DNA from: a virus
Direction: 5' to 3' (one strand)
Length of the DNA: 21,141 nucleotides
Virus record (IMG/VR): IMGVR_UViG_3300007542_000242
Coordinates: 1 to 21,141 of that record
A program made the position numbers and the translations under genes. Within the stretch, counting starts at the first letter, position 1; each line of letters starts with the position of its first letter. This document shows, in pieces, positions 2,790 through 12,906 of the stretch. The notes beneath the pieces are model-generated. The model saw only the letters and a program-made list of their open reading frames with translations, ran no database searches and was not told where the DNA came from.

Positions 2790-2896
2790 TGCAGGTACCT
2801 ATCTGGAGCAAGGGTGTCTTTGTGTGGGTGGACCTCACCGAGGAACTGTTCTACAAGCTGTGGAGTAGAGAGAATGAGAGAGTACAGAGTGGGTGA
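2786..2896 (+). CDS. hypothetical micro-protein, 36 aa
   Basis: Begins M-M-Q-V-P-I-W-S-K-G-V-F-V-W-V and ends in a helix L-T-E-E-L-F-Y-K-L-W. The ATG overlaps the preceding stop in the ATGA fashion typical of this genome. The frame stays open upstream to a GTG at 2699 with a possible GAGGA site, which would give 65 aa, so the start is uncertain. Its 3' end overlaps the start of the next gene by 23 bases. Confidence 0.42.
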   Translation: MMQVPIWSKGVFVWVDLTEELFYKLWSRENERVQSG

Positions 2897-3050
2897 CTGC
2901 ATAGGTTACCATGGAAGCCACACTATCATAGAAGAGGTTGTAGACGACAGGCTGTACGGCTATTGGTTTGAGTGGAACCGTATTTATGGCGATCTTACAT
3001 GGACCGGAGCCTACGAAGTAGACAGCCACATCCCCAAAGAGTATTGCTGA
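2874..3050 (+). CDS. IPKEY-family micro-protein, 58 aa (member 1)
   Basis: First of nine micro-proteins that share a C-terminal I-P-K-E-Y-x. The N-terminus Y-R-V-G-D-C-I-G-Y matches V-Q-V-G-D-C-V in the 3094 member and V-E-G-D-C-F in the 11137 member. The body alternates hydrophobic residues (T-I-I-E-E-V-V ... Y-G-Y-W-F-E-W) like a small SH3-type or KOW-like barrel; the fold is inferred only. Here the motif is encoded CCC AAA GAG TAT TGC, a weak Shine-Dalgarno, yet the peptide is intact. A possible 18-codon frame starts on its stop (TGATG). Start ATG at 2874 lies inside the end of the preceding frame. Confidence 0.65.
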   Translation: MREYRVGDCIGYHGSHTIIEEVVDDRLYGYWFEWNRIYGDLTWTGAYEVDSHIPKEYC

Positions 3051-3106
3051 TGAACATCTTCTATCTGTGCTCTGCACGAAGGGAGACACCTGAATGGTAC
3101 AAGTAG
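3050..3106 (+). CDS. possible 18-aa coupling frame
   Basis: M-N-I-F-Y-L-C-S-A-R-R-E-T-P-E-W-Y-K. Its ATG overlaps the previous stop (TGATG), and its R-R-E codons hold AGGGAG, the ribosome-binding site for the 3094 start within it. It may carry ribosomes between two IPKEY genes rather than encode a working peptide. Confidence 0.25.
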   Translation: MNIFYLCSARRETPEWYK

Positions 3107-3276
3107 GAGACTGTGTTACAACTAGAACTGGTAACTACGGGGTAGTTCAAGAGCAACGGGTACCCGGAAGTTGGTGGGCCTTGTTCCTGAAAACGGCATG
3201 GGGAAGTCGGGACTTCGAAAGGCTGCACTTCAAACAGTCTAACGCAAAGGTAGTAATCCCTAAGGAGTATACATGA
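3094..3276 (+). CDS. IPKEY-family micro-protein, 60 aa (member 2)
   Basis: Begins M-V-Q-V-G-D-C-V-T-T-R-T-G-N-Y-G-V-V, close to member 1 and typical of a small barrel with a Gly-Asn turn. Ends V-V-I-P-K-E-Y-T. The last codons CCT AAG GAG TAT ACA TGA contain the ribosome-binding site TAAGGAG and overlap the next gene's ATG (ATGA). AAGGGAGA upstream supports the start. Function unknown; the two adjacent members look like an old tandem duplication that has diverged. Confidence 0.7.
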   Translation: MVQVGDCVTTRTGNYGVVQEQRVPGSWWALFLKTAWGSRDFERLHFKQSNAKVVIPKEYT

Positions 3277-8119: not shown

Positions 8120-8286
8120 GGTGTTCCTGCTGCGACACAGATGAAAGACTTAAGTACGACAAGGACACTAACAAGTTCTACTGTACCCACTGCTGGGGAG
8201 AGATCAAGGAGAACTATAAGCAGTTAAAGAACGGAGGGTTTACCTTCAGAGACTTGAACTATATCTTCTTCGGAGAGGAGCAATGA
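8116..8286 (+). CDS. zinc-ribbon micro-protein, 56 aa
   Basis: M-R-C-S-C-C near the start and F-Y-C-T-H-C-W about 20 residues later give two Cys-x-x-Cys-type knuckles, so the protein probably binds zinc. The rest is helical and ends F-F-G-E-E-Q. Its ATG overlaps the vWA stop, and its own stop overlaps the next ATG (ATGA on both sides). The E-E codons (GGA GAG GAG) form the next ribosome-binding site. It may bind DNA or RNA or act with the primase, which has its own zinc finger; no evidence decides this. Confidence 0.72.
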   Translation: MRCSCCDTDERLKYDKDTNKFYCTHCWGEIKENYKQLKNGGFTFRDLNYIFFGEEQ

Positions 8287-8471
8287 ACCTTTGGCAATAC
8301 ATGCGTATAGGAATCTATCTTCTGTATCCTAATAAGGAACAAAGTAGTCTTACGTATTCTCTTTCTGCAGCGAATCCAGATTTTATGAAATTAGTATCAG
8401 ATAAAGATAAATTCCCTAGAAGATTAACTAATTCAGATTTCAAGTTAATAGTACCTGAGGAGTACATGTAA
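8283..8471 (+). CDS. IPKEY-family micro-protein, variant IVPEEYM, 62 aa (member 3)
   Basis: Divergent member ending L-I-V-P-E-E-Y-M. The motif is encoded GTA CCT GAG GAG TAC ATG TAA, which still supplies GAGGAG for the primase-helicase start at 8471 (TAATG overlap). The codons are noticeably richer in A/T than in both neighbours (many TTA, AAT, GAT, AGT), suggesting recent arrival. The body is aromatic and serine-rich, without the V-G-D-C start of other members. It sits exactly between the zinc-ribbon gene and the replicative primase-helicase. Confidence 0.6.
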   Translation: MNLWQYMRIGIYLLYPNKEQSSLTYSLSAANPDFMKLVSDKDKFPRRLTNSDFKLIVPEEYM

Positions 8472-9946
8472 TGGAGACACACCAAGACTGCCCCCACTGT
8501 GGACATAAGGAATGCTACACCGTATTCCCTGACGGTGGTTACTACTGCCATTCGTGTGGAGCAAAGAGCGGAGGAAAGCCATTGGAAATTGAAGAGAGAA
8601 ACTTTGAAACCATTCGTGGTATCGACAAGAAAGTCTGTGAGTTCTATGGTACTACTGTAGACTATGACTCTCTTGGTAATGCAGTACGACACACCTACCC
8701 CTACCCCCATGCTGAGAAATACCGCTACCTTCCTAAGGACTTCTCAAAGAACAAGGGGTTCACAACAGATCATCTCTTCGGGCAGGACAAGTTCAACCCC
8801 GGCTGTGCCAAGTATATCACTATCGTAGAGGGTGAGCTTGATGCTATGTCTGCCTATCAGATTCTCGGTAAGAGGTGGCCGGTAGTCTCTCTGCCTTCGG
8901 CTAGTATCAGCAGGAAGTTGTTGCAGAATGTACACGAATACTTGAACTCCTTCGAGAGTATCGTTATCTGTACTGATGGTGACGATGCAGGGAAGAAGGC
9001 CAGTGATACACTCTGTGAAGCATTCCCCGGTAAGGTATGGAGAGTCAAGCTAGAGAAGCACAAGGATGCTAATGCTTTCCTTCAGGCTGGTGACGAGGAG
9101 AGTTTCAAATGGTCATGGGTAAACAGAGAACGGTATGTTCCTTCTAACGTTTACAACAACAAGTCTGACTTTGATTCTATCCTTGACGACGACGAGACTA
9201 ACACCTTCATCCCTACTCCTATCACTGACTTCAACAAGCTGTGTAAGGGGCTGATGCAAGGCCACCTCACTGTGATTACAGGACCGGAGGGGCAGGGTAA
9301 GACAGAGGTGATGCGTCTCTTCGAAGCAGACATCCTTATGAACCATGACATCCCTATCGCAGTGCTGCATATGGAGGAGAGTAAGAAGACTTGCCTGTTG
9401 TCTTTGGCTTCCTACGTACTGGGTATCAACCTTCGGGACCCCGAGCATGGTGTGCCTCAGGAGGATATCAAGGCAGCGATAGACAAGCTGAACGCCAAGA
9501 AGAACCTGTTCCTCTTCGAGCTTGGTATTGACGAGGACCCACTCAGTATCATGGACAAGGTGCGTATGCTTACTTCTGTCTACGGCTGTAGGTACATCTT
9601 CATCGACCCTATCCAACAGCTTAGCTACGGCAAGGATAAGGACTCTACGGAGGAACAGGTGCTCACCAAGATCAGTGTACAATTGGAACGTATCGCCACT
9701 GAGTTCAATGTGGGTATTGTCTGTACTACTCACGTCAATGACGATGGACAAACTCGGAGCAGTCGTATGATTGGTAAGTCTGCCAGTGTGCGTATTGATC
9801 TTCAGCGAGACCATATGAATCCTGACCCTGACATTCGTAACCAGACCAAGCTGATGGTGTCAAAGAACAGACCTATCGGCCCTACTGGGTTTGCTGGTGT
9901 GTTGGAGTTTGACCCCGGCAGCTTCACTCTTAAGGAGATGGTATGA
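8471..9946 (+). CDS. T7 gp4-type DNA primase-helicase
   Basis: Makes primers and unwinds DNA at the phage fork. The N-terminal zinc finger has C7, C10, C26 and C29. The TOPRIM part has V-E-G-E-L-D-A (E120) and T-D-G-D-D-A-G (169-174). The RecA-like helicase domain, from about 245, has Walker A G-P-E-G-Q-G-K-T (271-278) and Walker B Y-I-F-I-D-P-I-Q-Q (375-383), followed by a T-T-H-V switch-type region. At 491 aa it is shorter than T7 gp4 (566), mainly between finger and TOPRIM, so primase activity is likely but not certain. The C-terminus L-K-E-M-V is encoded over TTAAGGAG, which starts the next gene. It partners the T7-like polymerase and SSB downstream. Confidence 0.93.
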   Translation: METHQDCPHCGHKECYTVFPDGGYYCHSCGAKSGGKPLEIEERNFETIRGIDKKVCEFYGTTVDYDSLGNAVRHTYPYPHAEKYRYLPKDFSKNKGFTTDHLFGQDKFNPGCAKYITIVEGELDAMSAYQILGKRWPVVSLPSASISRKLLQNVHEYLNSFESIVICTDGDDAGKKASDTLCEAFPGKVWRVKLEKHKDANAFLQAGDEESFKWSWVNRERYVPSNVYNNKSDFDSILDDDETNTFIPTPITDFNKLCKGLMQGHLTVITGPEGQGKTEVMRLFEADILMNHDIPIAVLHMEESKKTCLLSLASYVLGINLRDPEHGVPQEDIKAAIDKLNAKKNLFLFELGIDEDPLSIMDKVRMLTSVYGCRYIFIDPIQQLSYGKDKDSTEEQVLTKISVQLERIATEFNVGIVCTTHVNDDGQTRSSRMIGKSASVRIDLQRDHMNPDPDIRNQTKLMVSKNRPIGPTGFAGVLEFDPGSFTLKEMV

Positions 9947-10116
9947 GGTACAATCTTTTAATTACTCTCCGACCTACGGACTATGGGTATGGATGGGAGA
10001 TAAGGCCCGGAGTCTCGTACCCCTTAGGCCATCATAAATTCCCTACCGTATGCTGTTCTGGAACCACCAGAGACCCAGATAAGTACAACAAGAAGATACC
10101 TAAGGAGTACACCTGA
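9943..10116 (+). CDS. IPKEY-family micro-protein, 57 aa (member 4)
   Basis: M-R-Y-N-L-L-I-T-L-R-P start, a Y-G-Y-G-W-E-I strand, a Cys-Cys pair, and end N-K-K-I-P-K-E-Y-T. Starts on the stop of the primase-helicase using the TTAAGGAG at that gene's end. Its own CCT AAG GAG TAC ACC TGA supplies the site for the next member, whose ATG overlaps the stop (TGATG). It forms a two-gene array with the 10116 member between helicase and polymerase. Function unknown. Confidence 0.68.
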   Translation: MRYNLLITLRPTDYGYGWEIRPGVSYPLGHHKFPTVCCSGTTRDPDKYNKKIPKEYT

Positions 10117-10298
10117 TGCAAGCAGGAGAAGTCTGGAAGAATAAGTATTCACCAACCACTCTGGTATTAGGGCGAAGTACTAGGTTTTATTTCTATAACG
10201 GGGATGGGAATGCTCTCTTCGGTAGGTATGCCTGCTGTACTGTTAGTCTTAATAATCCTAGCGAGTGGAAAAAGATTATTCCAAAGGAGTACGCATGA
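10116..10298 (+). CDS. IPKEY-family micro-protein, 60 aa (member 5)
   Basis: Begins M-Q-A-G-E-V-W and continues with beta strands (T-L-V-L-G-R; R-F-Y-F-Y-N-G-D-G), ending K-K-I-I-P-K-E-Y-A. The 3' end CCA AAG GAG TAC GCA TGA overlaps the polymerase exonuclease-half ATG and provides its ribosome-binding site. Barrel-like alternation resembles the other members, but outside the C-terminus identity to them is low, which implies old divergence or convergence on the terminal motif. Confidence 0.68.
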   Translation: MQAGEVWKNKYSPTTLVLGRSTRFYFYNGDGNALFGRYACCTVSLNNPSEWKKIIPKEYA

Positions 10299-11158
10299 AG
10301 TTATTCGTATCAGACATCGAGACTGACGGGTTCGATCCTAGTGTGATCCATTGCTTCTTCGGTAAGGTGGTGGATACGGATACTTGGAAGGTAGAGGGAA
10401 CTGAAAGATGGGTAGACTTAAATAGTTTCGATACCCCAGACGTACCAGCAGTAACTCCAGTATTCCATAACGGATTGAACTTCGATGTCCCGGTACTTAA
10501 CAAGTTCTATCACGGACTTATTGATCCCCACAAAGTAGTGGATACCTTCGTGTCCTCTCGTCTTATTAACTATAGTAAGTTCCGTACTCATGGTCTAGAG
10601 GAACTTGGACGCTATCTCAAGATGCCTAAGGGTACATTCAATGGGCCTTGGGATAAGCGTACCAAGGAGATGGAAGACTATTGCTGGCAGGATGTAGACG
10701 TAACCATTGAAGTATTGAAACACTACTGGCCTCAGATCAGTGACCCCTCTTGGAAGAAAGCTCTCAGAGTAGAGCATGAGATGGCTATCATCTGTAAGGA
10801 CATGCAGGACAATGGGTTCTACTTCAACGACGAGAAGGCTCTGGATATTCTCCACGATGTACAAACAGAGCAGGCTACTCTTGAGGCTTCATTCAAGAAG
10901 GAGTTTCCACCCCACAGAGTAGAGACTAAGAGGATCAAGTACCGTACCAAGAAGGATGGCTCTCTGTTCTCTGGTGTATCCAAAGCACTAACAGAATACC
11001 CTGACCACGAGAGGGACGGAGAAGACTTGGTGTGCTACACTAAGCAAGAGTTTAATCCCGGTTCACCAAGAGATCGTATTGACGCCCTGTGGGATGCCGG
11101 GTGGAATCCATACCTCAAAACGAAAGGACACAAGAAATGGTTAAGAGAGTCCCGGTAG
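10295..11158 (+). CDS. split family A DNA polymerase, exonuclease half
   Basis: Carries the 3'-5' proofreading domain: Exo I V-S-D-I-E-T-D-G (D7, E9), Exo II H-N-G-L-N-F-D (D64) and Exo III Y-C-W-Q-D-V-D-V-T (D133). The start of the polymerase module follows, up to F-N-P-G-S-P-R-D-R-I and G-W-N-P-Y-L-K-T-K-G-H-K-K. In T7 polymerase the same F-N-P-S-S-R-D-H-I region runs straight on towards the palm; here the frame stops after W-L-R-E-S-R, and two micro-genes intervene before the polymerase half. By alignment from memory the break falls near T7 residue 360, in the thumb. The first micro-gene begins inside the last 22 bases. The two halves would have to assemble to make a normal enzyme. Start at 10295 is fixed by ATGA overlap and AAAGGAG. 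Confidence 0.9.
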   Translation: MKLFVSDIETDGFDPSVIHCFFGKVVDTDTWKVEGTERWVDLNSFDTPDVPAVTPVFHNGLNFDVPVLNKFYHGLIDPHKVVDTFVSSRLINYSKFRTHGLEELGRYLKMPKGTFNGPWDKRTKEMEDYCWQDVDVTIEVLKHYWPQISDPSWKKALRVEHEMAIICKDMQDNGFYFNDEKALDILHDVQTEQATLEASFKKEFPPHRVETKRIKYRTKKDGSLFSGVSKALTEYPDHERDGEDLVCYTKQEFNPGSPRDRIDALWDAGWNPYLKTKGHKKWLRESR

Positions 11159-11307
11159 AGGGTGACTGCTTCATTAGTAAGTCTGGTGAACTAAAATGGA
11201 TTTGCCTTAAGGACTCTAAGAAACAATACAACTTCAACACAGGAAGAGCGGTCAACTCCCATGTGGTCACTGCATTCGAAATCCTAATCCCTAAGGAGTA
11301 TACCTAA
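11137..11307 (+). CDS. IPKEY-family micro-protein inside split polymerase, 56 aa (member 6)
   Basis: M-V-K-R-V-P-V-E-G-D-C-F-I-S-K-S-G start resembles members 1 and 2 (V-G-D-C); end E-I-L-I-P-K-E-Y-T. It begins out of frame within the last codons of the polymerase exonuclease half, where polymerase codons for K-G (AAA GGA) act as its ribosome-binding site. Its CCT AAG GAG TAT ACC TAA serves the next member (TAATG overlap). An in-frame ATG at 11089 would extend it further into the polymerase and is less well supported. Confidence 0.68.
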   Translation: MVKRVPVEGDCFISKSGELKWICLKDSKKQYNFNTGRAVNSHVVTAFEILIPKEYT

Positions 11308-11522
11308 TGGCCTACAATGGAGTATGTGTCACTGAGTATAGTGCTGGGAGTGGAGATTATGTAGATGATTGCTGCCTTGTCCACGACTCTATGGTAGTGT
11401 TTACCTTTCGAAGAGATACAGGGTGCGATTACATGGTATTACCTCGTAGACCTTTCAGAGTAGATGACCCAGATGACGGTGTCAGATCAGTTGAAGTAGT
11501 AATCCCTAAGGAGTACACATGA
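11307..11522 (+). CDS. IPKEY-family micro-protein inside split polymerase, 71 aa (member 7)
   Basis: Longest member. M-A-Y-N-G-V-C-V-T-E-Y start, a D-D-C-C pair, M-V-V-F-T-F-R-R strand, and end V-E-V-V-I-P-K-E-Y-T. The terminal CCT AAG GAG TAC ACA TGA overlaps the ATG of the polymerase half and is its only evident ribosome-binding site, so this micro-gene is needed for the second half of the enzyme to be made. Function of the peptide itself unknown. Confidence 0.7.
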   Translation: MAYNGVCVTEYSAGSGDYVDDCCLVHDSMVVFTFRRDTGCDYMVLPRRPFRVDDPDDGVRSVEVVIPKEYT

Positions 11523-12541
11523 TAGAAGACAAGGAAGAACATTACAAAAGGTACGGATGGGAGGTCAACGAGGAGAACCTGTCCACTCTACCAGCTACAG
11601 CACCACAGGCAGCAAGGGATTTGACCAAGTGGTTAACTCTTGAGGGTAGACGTAAGCAACTGGAGGATTGGTTAGCTAACCTGAACAGAGACACCAACTC
11701 TATTCACGGTAAGTTCTGGCCTATCGGTGCTTGGACGCATCGGATGGCACACACCAGCCCTAATGCCGCCAACATTGTGTCTGTCTTTAGTGGTACACCA
11801 GAGACACCAGTAGAAGAAGTAAAGGAAAAATACGATGGAGAGATGCGGTCCTGTTGGGAGGCTGATCCGGGTGCATGGCTTGTGGGTACTGACGCTGATG
11901 GTATTCAGTTGCGTATCCTTTGTCACTACACCAAGTCTGCTGTACTCAGGGACGCTATTGTATCCGGTGATAAGTCAGTGGGTACAGACATCCACTCAAT
12001 GAATCAGAAGGCTCTTGGTCCTATCTGTAAGACCAGAGACGACGCCAAGACATTCATCTACGCTTGGCTCCTAGGTGCTGGTATCCCCAAGATAGCTAGT
12101 ATTCTCAAGTGCACCATGCCTCAGGCTAAGGAAGCAGTGGATAACTTCCTGTCTGCTTATCCAGAGTTGAAGAGGTTGAAGAACGTCACCATTCCTAGAG
12201 ATGCAGCAAGAGGATACTTCATCGGTCTTGATGGACGTAAAGTACAGTGTGACTCTGAACACCTGATGCTGGCTGGATACCTACAGAATGGTGAGGCTGT
12301 GGTGATGAAGCACGCTAACGTACTCTGGAGGAAAGCACTAGATGAATTCTTTTATCAGTACAAGCAGGCAAACTTCGTACACGACGAATGGCAAACGGTA
12401 GTCTTTGGAGGACGAGACAATGCAGAACAAGTCGGGTTGATACAGAGACAAGCTATCATAGACACAGGACATGACCTGAGCCTGTTCTGCCCATTGGATG
12501 GTAGCTATAGCGTAGGTAGAAATTGGCGCGAAACCCATTAG
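11519..12541 (+). CDS. split family A DNA polymerase, polymerase half
   Basis: Contains the whole catalytic palm and fingers: motif A G-T-D-A-D-G-I-Q-L-R (catalytic D125), motif B R-D-D-A-K-T-F-I-Y-A-W-L-L-G-A-G (R173, K177, Y181, equivalent to T7 R518, K522, Y526) and motif C V-H-D-E-W near the C-terminus. The first 25 residues (H-Y-K-R-Y-G-W-E-V-N-E-E-N-L-S-T-L-P) continue the region interrupted in the upstream half. Translation starts on the stop of the second embedded micro-gene. 287 + 340 residues gives 627, somewhat below T7 polymerase (704), consistent with lack of the thioredoxin-binding insert. All catalytic residues are present, so the split gene looks functional rather than decayed. 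Confidence 0.92.
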   Translation: MIEDKEEHYKRYGWEVNEENLSTLPATAPQAARDLTKWLTLEGRRKQLEDWLANLNRDTNSIHGKFWPIGAWTHRMAHTSPNAANIVSVFSGTPETPVEEVKEKYDGEMRSCWEADPGAWLVGTDADGIQLRILCHYTKSAVLRDAIVSGDKSVGTDIHSMNQKALGPICKTRDDAKTFIYAWLLGAGIPKIASILKCTMPQAKEAVDNFLSAYPELKRLKNVTIPRDAARGYFIGLDGRKVQCDSEHLMLAGYLQNGEAVVMKHANVLWRKALDEFFYQYKQANFVHDEWQTVVFGGRDNAEQVGLIQRQAIIDTGHDLSLFCPLDGSYSVGRNWRETH

Positions 12542-12556
12542 AAAGGAGACACACTA

Positions 12557-12739
12557 ATGCAAGAGACTAGACAGGTTAACACTAGGTACGTAGGTATTGG
12601 TTGGCTAAGTAAAAAGGCTAGGGAACTCAGGCTGCCCAAGGAGAAGGTAGAATCTATCAGACATCCTGATGCACGTTACGTAGGAAAGGGATGGTATGAG
12701 TACACCTACGAGACAGACATCCCGTGGGAATACCGATGA
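12557..12739 (+). CDS. IPKEY-family micro-protein, variant IPWEYR, 60 aa (member 8)
   Basis: Ends E-T-D-I-P-W-E-Y-R, a variant of the family motif encoded CCG TGG GAA TAC CGA TGA, with the embedded ribosome-binding site largely lost. It has an internal repeat R-Y-V-G-I-G-W (about 10-16) and R-Y-V-G-K-G-W (about 41-47). A strong GAAAGGAG precedes the start, 15 bases after the polymerase stop. The next member's ATG overlaps its stop (ATGA). Motif placement and context support family membership; the body differs from the others. Confidence 0.6.
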   Translation: MQETRQVNTRYVGIGWLSKKARELRLPKEKVESIRHPDARYVGKGWYEYTYETDIPWEYR

Positions 12740-12906
12740 AGAGCGGGGTGTTGTCCGATCATGGATTAGGTATTTACTCTCTTATCTACAAGAGTGCCGA
12801 TACCGTTTACTACTTCCCTACAGGGTCATCTCTCGAAACTAAATTCAGTTCGGTAGAGAGACTGGGCGAAGGCTACAAAGAAGTGATCCCGAAGGAATAT
12901 TGTTAG
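12736..12906 (+). CDS. IPKEY-family micro-protein, 56 aa (member 9)
   Basis: M-K-S-G-V-L-S-D-H-G-L-G-I-Y-S-L-I-Y-K start, then D-T-V-Y-Y-F-P-T-G strand, and end K-E-V-I-P-K-E-Y-C. The motif is encoded CCG AAG GAA TAT TGT TAG: the Shine-Dalgarno is weakened, and the next gene has its own AAAGGA after a gap, so the peptide motif persists where it is not needed for translation. The start overlaps the preceding stop. Confidence 0.65.
   Translation: MKSGVLSDHGLGIYSLIYKSADTVYYFPTGSSLETKFSSVERLGEGYKEVIPKEYC

Follow-up and report, generated by a model that had tools for sequence, protein, structure and literature searches.

Split polymerases as such are already known. In the T4-type Aeromonas phages 25 and 44RR, gene 43 is split into 43A and 43B, whose polypeptides co-purify with DNA polymerase activity, and a homing endonuclease is associated with the 43A/43B junction of phage 25 (PMC2988022). 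The nrdA gene of Aeh1, an example of genes in pieces, is split by mobE with retention of the function of the phage enzyme (PMC2988022). The OM43 phages MEP401 and MEP402 (Zobellviridae) also have a split family A polymerase, its two genes being separated by a small ORF of unknown function (PMC10580990). For ICBM2 (Veravirus) and CRP-5, both Cobavirinae, Zobellviridae, RefSeq uses the names 'DNA polymerase exonuclease subunit' and, separately, 'DNA polymerase I', the exonuclease subunit being present in the ICBM2 record. The texts of the cobavirus and RCA phage descriptions, as covered by a keyword search, do not discuss this split.

The locus analysed here lies in a viral DNA stretch of 21,141 nucleotides (IMGVR_UViG_3300007542_000242; hereafter the window), in which a family A (T7-like) DNA polymerase is encoded by an exonuclease gene (exo, 10295-11158) and a polymerase gene (pol, 11519-12541). 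It shares with split gene 43 a replicative polymerase in two polypeptides, whereas gene 43 encodes a family B polymerase, belongs to unrelated phages and has no micro-gene arrays described. Unlike Aeh1 nrdA, which encodes a ribonucleotide reductase and whose insert is a homing endonuclease, the window has inserts without a nuclease motif. In MEP401, our alignment places the break just before motif A (gp13 ..LFLSRYGE / gp15 MILNADAKALEW), which is not where the break of the window lies, and the inserted ORF (77 aa) lacks the IPKEY-like tail of the window's micro-genes. ICBM2 and CRP-5 resemble the window in enzyme family, subfamily and split linker. They differ from it in having no micro-genes, in the overlap of their two genes and in a pol read in the +1 frame from a Shine-Dalgarno sequence inside the KTKGH codons, and their split is separate from that of the window on the tree. 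The closest GenBank record is T5S1-k141_653015 (PQ867845), whose pol is 62% identical to that of the window. Its halves are separate genes, both annotated just as 'DNA polymerase', and like the window it has tailed small genes, the tails following the pattern PxEFLS; unlike in the window, its exo precedes the primase-helicase gene and is separated from pol by 2.7 kb.

Two intact genes and the position of the break

Both genes of the window lie on the + strand and each ORF is intact. The exo gene (10295..11158, from ATG 10295 to the stop at 11158) encodes 287 aa that end in ..KTKGHKKWLRESR* and correspond to the exonuclease half and the N-terminal part of the thumb. The pol gene (11519..12541, from ATG 11519) encodes 340 aa that start with MIEDKEEHYKRYGW and correspond to the end of the thumb, the palm and the fingers. 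The Pfam family PF00476 matched the pol half (E 9e-27), PF01612 matched the exo half at E 6e-5 with 23.4 bits, just below the gathering cut-off of 23.6 bits, and the PHROG_17 DNA polymerase family matched both (exo E 4e-41, pol E 4e-57). Comparison of the profile of each half with T7 polymerase gave E 1.4e-39 for pol and 1.4e-19 for exo. The exo half contains exo I (DIETD), exo II (HNGLNFD) and exo III (YCWQD), and the pol half contains motifs A (DADGIQLR), B (RDDAKTFIY) and C (VHDE) at residues 125, 173 and 287. The proteins thus hold the DNA_pol_A domain with motifs A-C and the 3'-5' exonuclease domain with exo I-III that define family A membership, and lack the single continuous polypeptide that is usual, if not strictly defining, for the family. 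The first-pass annotation had described separate exo and pol genes with two IPKEY genes between them and all catalytic motifs intact, and both statements held. The split of the polymerase gene in the window is secure; an artefact or a pseudogene was rejected, since each half is an intact ORF and many contigs as well as two isolates show the split too.

That annotation had also placed the break in the thumb, where T7 polymerase is continuous, and this was borne out. In the numbering of the 704-residue T7 DNA polymerase, the exo-half profile aligns up to about residue 357 and the pol-half profile from about residue 365 onward, and T7 polymerase is continuous at this position. Alignment with unsplit relatives, proposed in the same annotation as a check, located the break more exactly, in a linker that varies in length and sequence between ..AGWxPxxKTKGH.. 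and ..YGWxxxExNLxTLP.. The break of every split relative coincides with this linker, the length of which varies among the unsplit relatives. On an AlphaFold model of the unsplit polymerase of L096 (mean pLDDT 90.8; Z 35.9 and rmsd 4.9 over 570 residues against T7 polymerase), the break maps to loop 285-292, between helices 275-287 and 292-301. By alignment and model, the break sits in a loop between two surface helices and costs no conserved residue. We take this loop to be the tip of the thumb, from the domain layout of T7 and Klenow polymerases.

The primase-helicase gene (8471..9946, + strand) lies upstream of exo in the window. The order cobS - cobT - primase-helicase - exo - pol - exonuclease - phosphoesterase is common to the window and other relatives. 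On the basis of this shared gene order and of its nearest polymerase record, which is classed in Cobavirinae (PQ867845), the window is assigned to a Zobellviridae/Cobavirinae-like podovirus, a phage of marine type. It also carries a tRNA gene at 2376-2448 (Rfam RF00005, 61 bits).

The split among related phages

Relatives with a continuous polymerase include L096, L013 and CRP-4. The loci fetched first were unsplit, split without insert, split with an insert of 0.3-0.8 kb, or split with halves 2.4-3.2 kb apart; further scans, whose counts include some repeats of the same contig, gave 153 unsplit loci, 49 split without insert, 14 split with insert and 3 far-split. In the five far-split relatives (T5S1, which is L002, and L089, L009, L011 and L097), the primase-helicase gene separates exo from pol, so the halves must be separate proteins and not parts of a spliced gene. 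In L010, the genes overlap and the junction has no insert; a break at the same linker, likewise free of junction micro-genes, is found in the isolates CRP-5 and ICBM2 and in many contigs. Conservation extends to both halves in every split relative. In close split pairs of the CRP-5-like clade, dN/dS is 0.03-0.16 in both halves; the window itself has no relative close enough for this measure.

These arrangements bear on whether an intron, an intein or recoding might join the two ORFs of the window into one continuous polymerase. One relative does have a group I intron within its polymerase gene (L087:10478-10837; Rfam, 57.2 bits), a third kind of interruption in this family, and the authors of the MEP401 study also raised an intron (PMC10580990). 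The Rfam library that detects the L087 intron gave no match in window 10900-11800 even at E 5, and the interruption thus holds no self-splicing RNA of the group I or II type that this search could recognise. Instead, the gap contains two ORFs with their own RBSs; a whole gene separates the halves in the far-split relatives, and in L010 and the CRP-5-like phages the genes overlap and pol starts at its own ATG. Post-transcriptional or translational joining of the ORFs is strongly disfavoured, and we regard a single continuous product formed in any of these ways as highly improbable.

In all split forms without insert, pol is in the +1 frame. In most insert-free splits of the CRP-5-like clade, the ATG of pol follows by 10-11 bases an AAAGGA or AAGGG sequence within the KTKGH codons, and the unsplit relatives of this clade have TTG or nothing at the matching position. 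A single base change (TTTG to TATG, a Phe to a Tyr codon) would thus help to create the pol start. The exo C-terminus of L010 (..QRHGHYD*) matches that of L254 (..QRRKSYD*), which disfavours a one-base assembly error as the source of the L010 split.

Trees were built from exo plus pol. L010 is the sister of the window (support 100/98-99), and both fall in a clade (100/100) with L039, L401, L092, L254, the five far-split phages and the unsplit L096. A second split clade, adjoining unsplit relatives, comprises CRP-5, ICBM2 and numerous contigs; L109 and L113 may belong to it or represent a third case (p-AU 0.156). A single clade of all split forms was rejected with p 2e-5 in one tree set and 8e-63 in another. 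Within the window's clade, L096 is sister to the split L254 (100/100), and a clade of the split members without L096 was rejected (p 0.0006; p 0.42 with a smaller set). This placement calls for at least one re-fusion or one additional split, so the split trait is labile. By these phylogenies, the split arose (or reverted) more than once.

The first-pass annotation had explained the split by a cassette insertion that broke the gene yet kept it working. The second part presumably stands, as both halves are conserved under low dN/dS; insertion as the cause is not established, as L010 and the CRP-5/ICBM2 clade are split without micro-genes at the junction. Such a history, in which a micro-gene cassette interrupted a continuous polymerase in the ancestor of the window's clade and its embedded RBS rescued the second half, draws on L096, the intact relative that the annotation had suggested looking for: it belongs to this clade and has no micro-genes around its polymerase. 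In addition, the split members of the clade all carry junction micro-genes (five of them also the primase), L010 excepted, and plain parsimony would then put the insertion at the base of the clade and a loss in L010. Set against this, L010 is the very sister of the window, the CRP-5/ICBM2 clade is split at the same linker without micro-genes, and no micro-gene was seen within an uninterrupted polymerase frame. We consider insertion as the first event unlikely. The annotation had also said that its reading would be refuted if all close relatives had the split without the micro-genes, the split then being the older event; L010, CRP-5 and ICBM2 point this way, whereas most members of the window's clade have micro-genes.

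A few further observations concern individual relatives. L401 (RXKB01000026.1) has the closest full-length pol half found (67%), and this phage contig is binned in a Candidatus Dependentiae MAG, which may hint at the host or be a binning error. L179 and L271 have a split polymerase with a gap of 600-645 bases and no ORF longer than 31 codons in a scan that can miss ORFs starting inside exo. In L079, L081 and L083, the pol half contains about 0.3 kb of extra in-frame sequence (~10138-10502 in locus coordinates) near query residues 54-65, which may represent an intein or a lineage-specific domain.

Micro-genes and endonucleases at the junction

The micro-genes are coupled to their neighbours on the + strand of the window. 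Micro-gene 1 (MVKRVPVEGD...ILIPKEYT; 11137..11307, 56 aa) overlaps the 3' end of exo; its start is most likely ATG 11137, after an AAAGGA at 11123-11128, rather than the listed GTG 11089. This Shine-Dalgarno-like AAAGGA lies within the codons of the conserved KTKGH motif, and in CRP-5-like relatives it serves the pol half directly. The IPKEYT tail of micro-gene 1 contains an AAGGAG (11293..11298) that would serve micro-gene 2 (MAYNGVCVTE...VVIPKEYT; 11307..11522, 71 aa), which also ends in IPKEYT, and the stop codons of both micro-genes overlap the next start codons. As the first-pass annotation had proposed, the second half of the polymerase apparently starts from an RBS embedded in this cassette: an AAGGAG at 11508-11513 in the tail of micro-gene 2 precedes the pol ATG at 11519, which overlaps the TGA stop.

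Micro-genes with IPKEY-like tails also occupy other boundaries of the window (2814-3276, 8283-8471, 9943-10298 and 12557-12906). Between primase-helicase and exo there are two on the + strand, one with an IPKEYT tail (9943..10116) and one with an IPKEYA tail (10116..10298), whose embedded AAGGAG would serve the exo half. Two more follow on the + strand 3' of pol, with the tails IPWEYR (12557..12739) and IPKEYC (12736..12906); the gene after the latter is loosely coupled, and the tail codons are relaxed to AAG GAA. A total of nine small ORFs on the + strand of the window end in a PxE[aromatic/aliphatic] tail, against none on the - strand; in unrelated loci, such ORFs number about 0.1 per locus. 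The PxE tail of the window's small ORFs is not due to chance.

Each phage lineage has a uniform tail of its own: IPKEY[TCA] for the window, PxEF[LF]x for T5S1, L011 and L089, GPxExxxW for L092 and LVxW for L039 and L401. The uniformity within lineages looks as if the tails were under concerted change. Among the 42 tails that double as RBS for the following gene, 36 have GAG as the Glu codon, compared with 7 of the 17 tails without this role (Fisher p 0.001), so codon choice follows use as RBS. The tail peptide persists also where the next gene does not need it as RBS, partly by construction, since the ORFs were picked by their tail. The IPKEY boundary pattern was found at DNA level in five IMG/VR stretches with one match each and without micro-gene arrays, and the exact IPKEY boundary is thus lineage-specific. 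A limited literature search found no description of such micro-gene tails or of repeated fission at the thumb tip.

The bodies of the micro-genes are hardly alike. A few pairs within a genome are significant, pairs in the same slot across genomes are not, and positional orthology could not be detected among 24 slot sequences (mean z 0.07 for the same slot vs 0.12 for different slots; one sequence, L092 'pre', was out of frame and only added noise). Same-slot micro-genes that are not orthologous above background speak against insertion as the event that broke the gene, while a weak likeness of micro-gene 1 to the first micro-gene after exo in L097 (phmmer E 0.005) speaks for it. As micro-genes in matching slots are not recognisably orthologous, it does not follow from where they are present or absent which event came first. 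Micro-proteins 1 and 2 matched no Pfam or PHROG family, and the AlphaFold model of micro-gene 1, from a noisy alignment of 27 rows, gave a pLDDT of 58 with a mere hint of beta strands.

Different genes occupy the junction in different lineages. In the window's clade, it holds two micro-genes in the window, two in L039, one in L401 and four in L092, and the far-split phages have several around the primase. In the CRP-5-like clade, Pfam identified HNH or endonuclease VII genes at the junction of L133, L147, L142 (with a match below the curated cut-off), L148/150/152 and L162; further ORFs in L183, L185 and L234 align with the endonuclease VII type. The endonuclease genes identified by Pfam each begin at the ATG of pol itself and pol restarts behind them, a takeover that we call start capture. 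L254, within the window's clade, has one micro-gene followed by a 23-codon fossil of an endonuclease VII C-terminus (L254:3937-4008), which aligns with five of the endonucleases at E 6e-7 to 9e-5 and scores 18.1 bits vs 6.5 for the best of 50 shuffles. An HNH_3-type endonuclease ORF also starts at the end of the exo half in L165 (4388-4753), a contig that ends before any pol half.

These genes raise the question of whether a free-standing HNH/endonuclease VII homing endonuclease split the polymerase gene and was later lost and replaced by micro-genes. The occupation of the junction by at least five different endonuclease genes in the CRP-5-like clade and the fossil in L254 would fit this history, and it has precedents in the seg endonuclease found with split gene 43 and in mobE of Aeh1 nrdA (PMC2988022). 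The carriers are nested, however, among close split genes without an endonuclease (L109 for L133, L128 for L142, L003 for L162), and the endonucleases of this clade therefore came after the split. An endonuclease between the halves, as in genes in pieces, was found in L133, L147, L148 and L162 and not in the window, where Pfam, PHROG and comparison with the endonucleases revealed no nuclease domain or trace in the gap. Endonuclease entry as the first step seems improbable. The absence of a nuclease trace from the gap also led us to reject the micro-genes as decayed endonucleases.

Order of events and significance

We consider it probable that the enzyme consists of two polypeptides and that fission at the thumb loop came first, the new boundary being colonised afterwards by micro-genes or homing endonucleases. 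The polymerase would be made from neighbouring genes of one operon and assemble non-covalently into one enzyme. We infer that the halves reassemble into an active complex because both are conserved and because the 43A/43B polypeptides of T4-type phages co-purify with polymerase activity. The loop at the thumb tip would tolerate fission, and a frameshift or an internal start within it may have made two genes. ORFs bringing their own downstream RBS could then have inserted at the new boundary by taking over the start signal of the downstream gene. Such colonists would be micro-genes in the window's clade and HNH/endonuclease VII homing endonucleases in the CRP-5-like clade, with the fossil in L254. 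The two IPKEY micro-genes of the window would be later colonists of its exo-pol boundary, pol being probably translated from the AAGGAG embedded in micro-gene 2.

Fission before colonisation is favoured because of the insert-free split of L010, the independent splits without insert, the pattern of start capture and the micro-genes at many other boundaries; we rate it as the most likely order, not as a proven one. The junction micro-genes carried by every split member of the window's clade except L010 count against it, and the sisterhood of L096 and L254, which requires re-fusion or several independent splits, counts against any simple history. A broader reading, which we put forward tentatively as possible though doubtful, is that the thumb-tip loop is a recurrent fission site, that the junction is a hot spot of insertion by start capture and that micro-genes with dual-coded tails are shuffling cassettes. 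On that broader reading, entry would be open to every ORF whose start coincides with the start signal of the downstream gene and whose end supplies an RBS of its own; micro-gene cassettes could settle at the boundary of any gene pair and may have rearranged exo and primase-helicase relative to each other.

Repeated fission at one loop, if true, would amount to a natural experiment that shows where a cut leaves a family A polymerase working, and fission at the thumb tip bears directly on engineered split polymerases. The junction also offers a concrete, testable model of how small genes may be added between essential phage genes with translation unbroken. Homing endonucleases, micro-genes and a change of gene order share this one junction, and the order of these events can be read from relatives.
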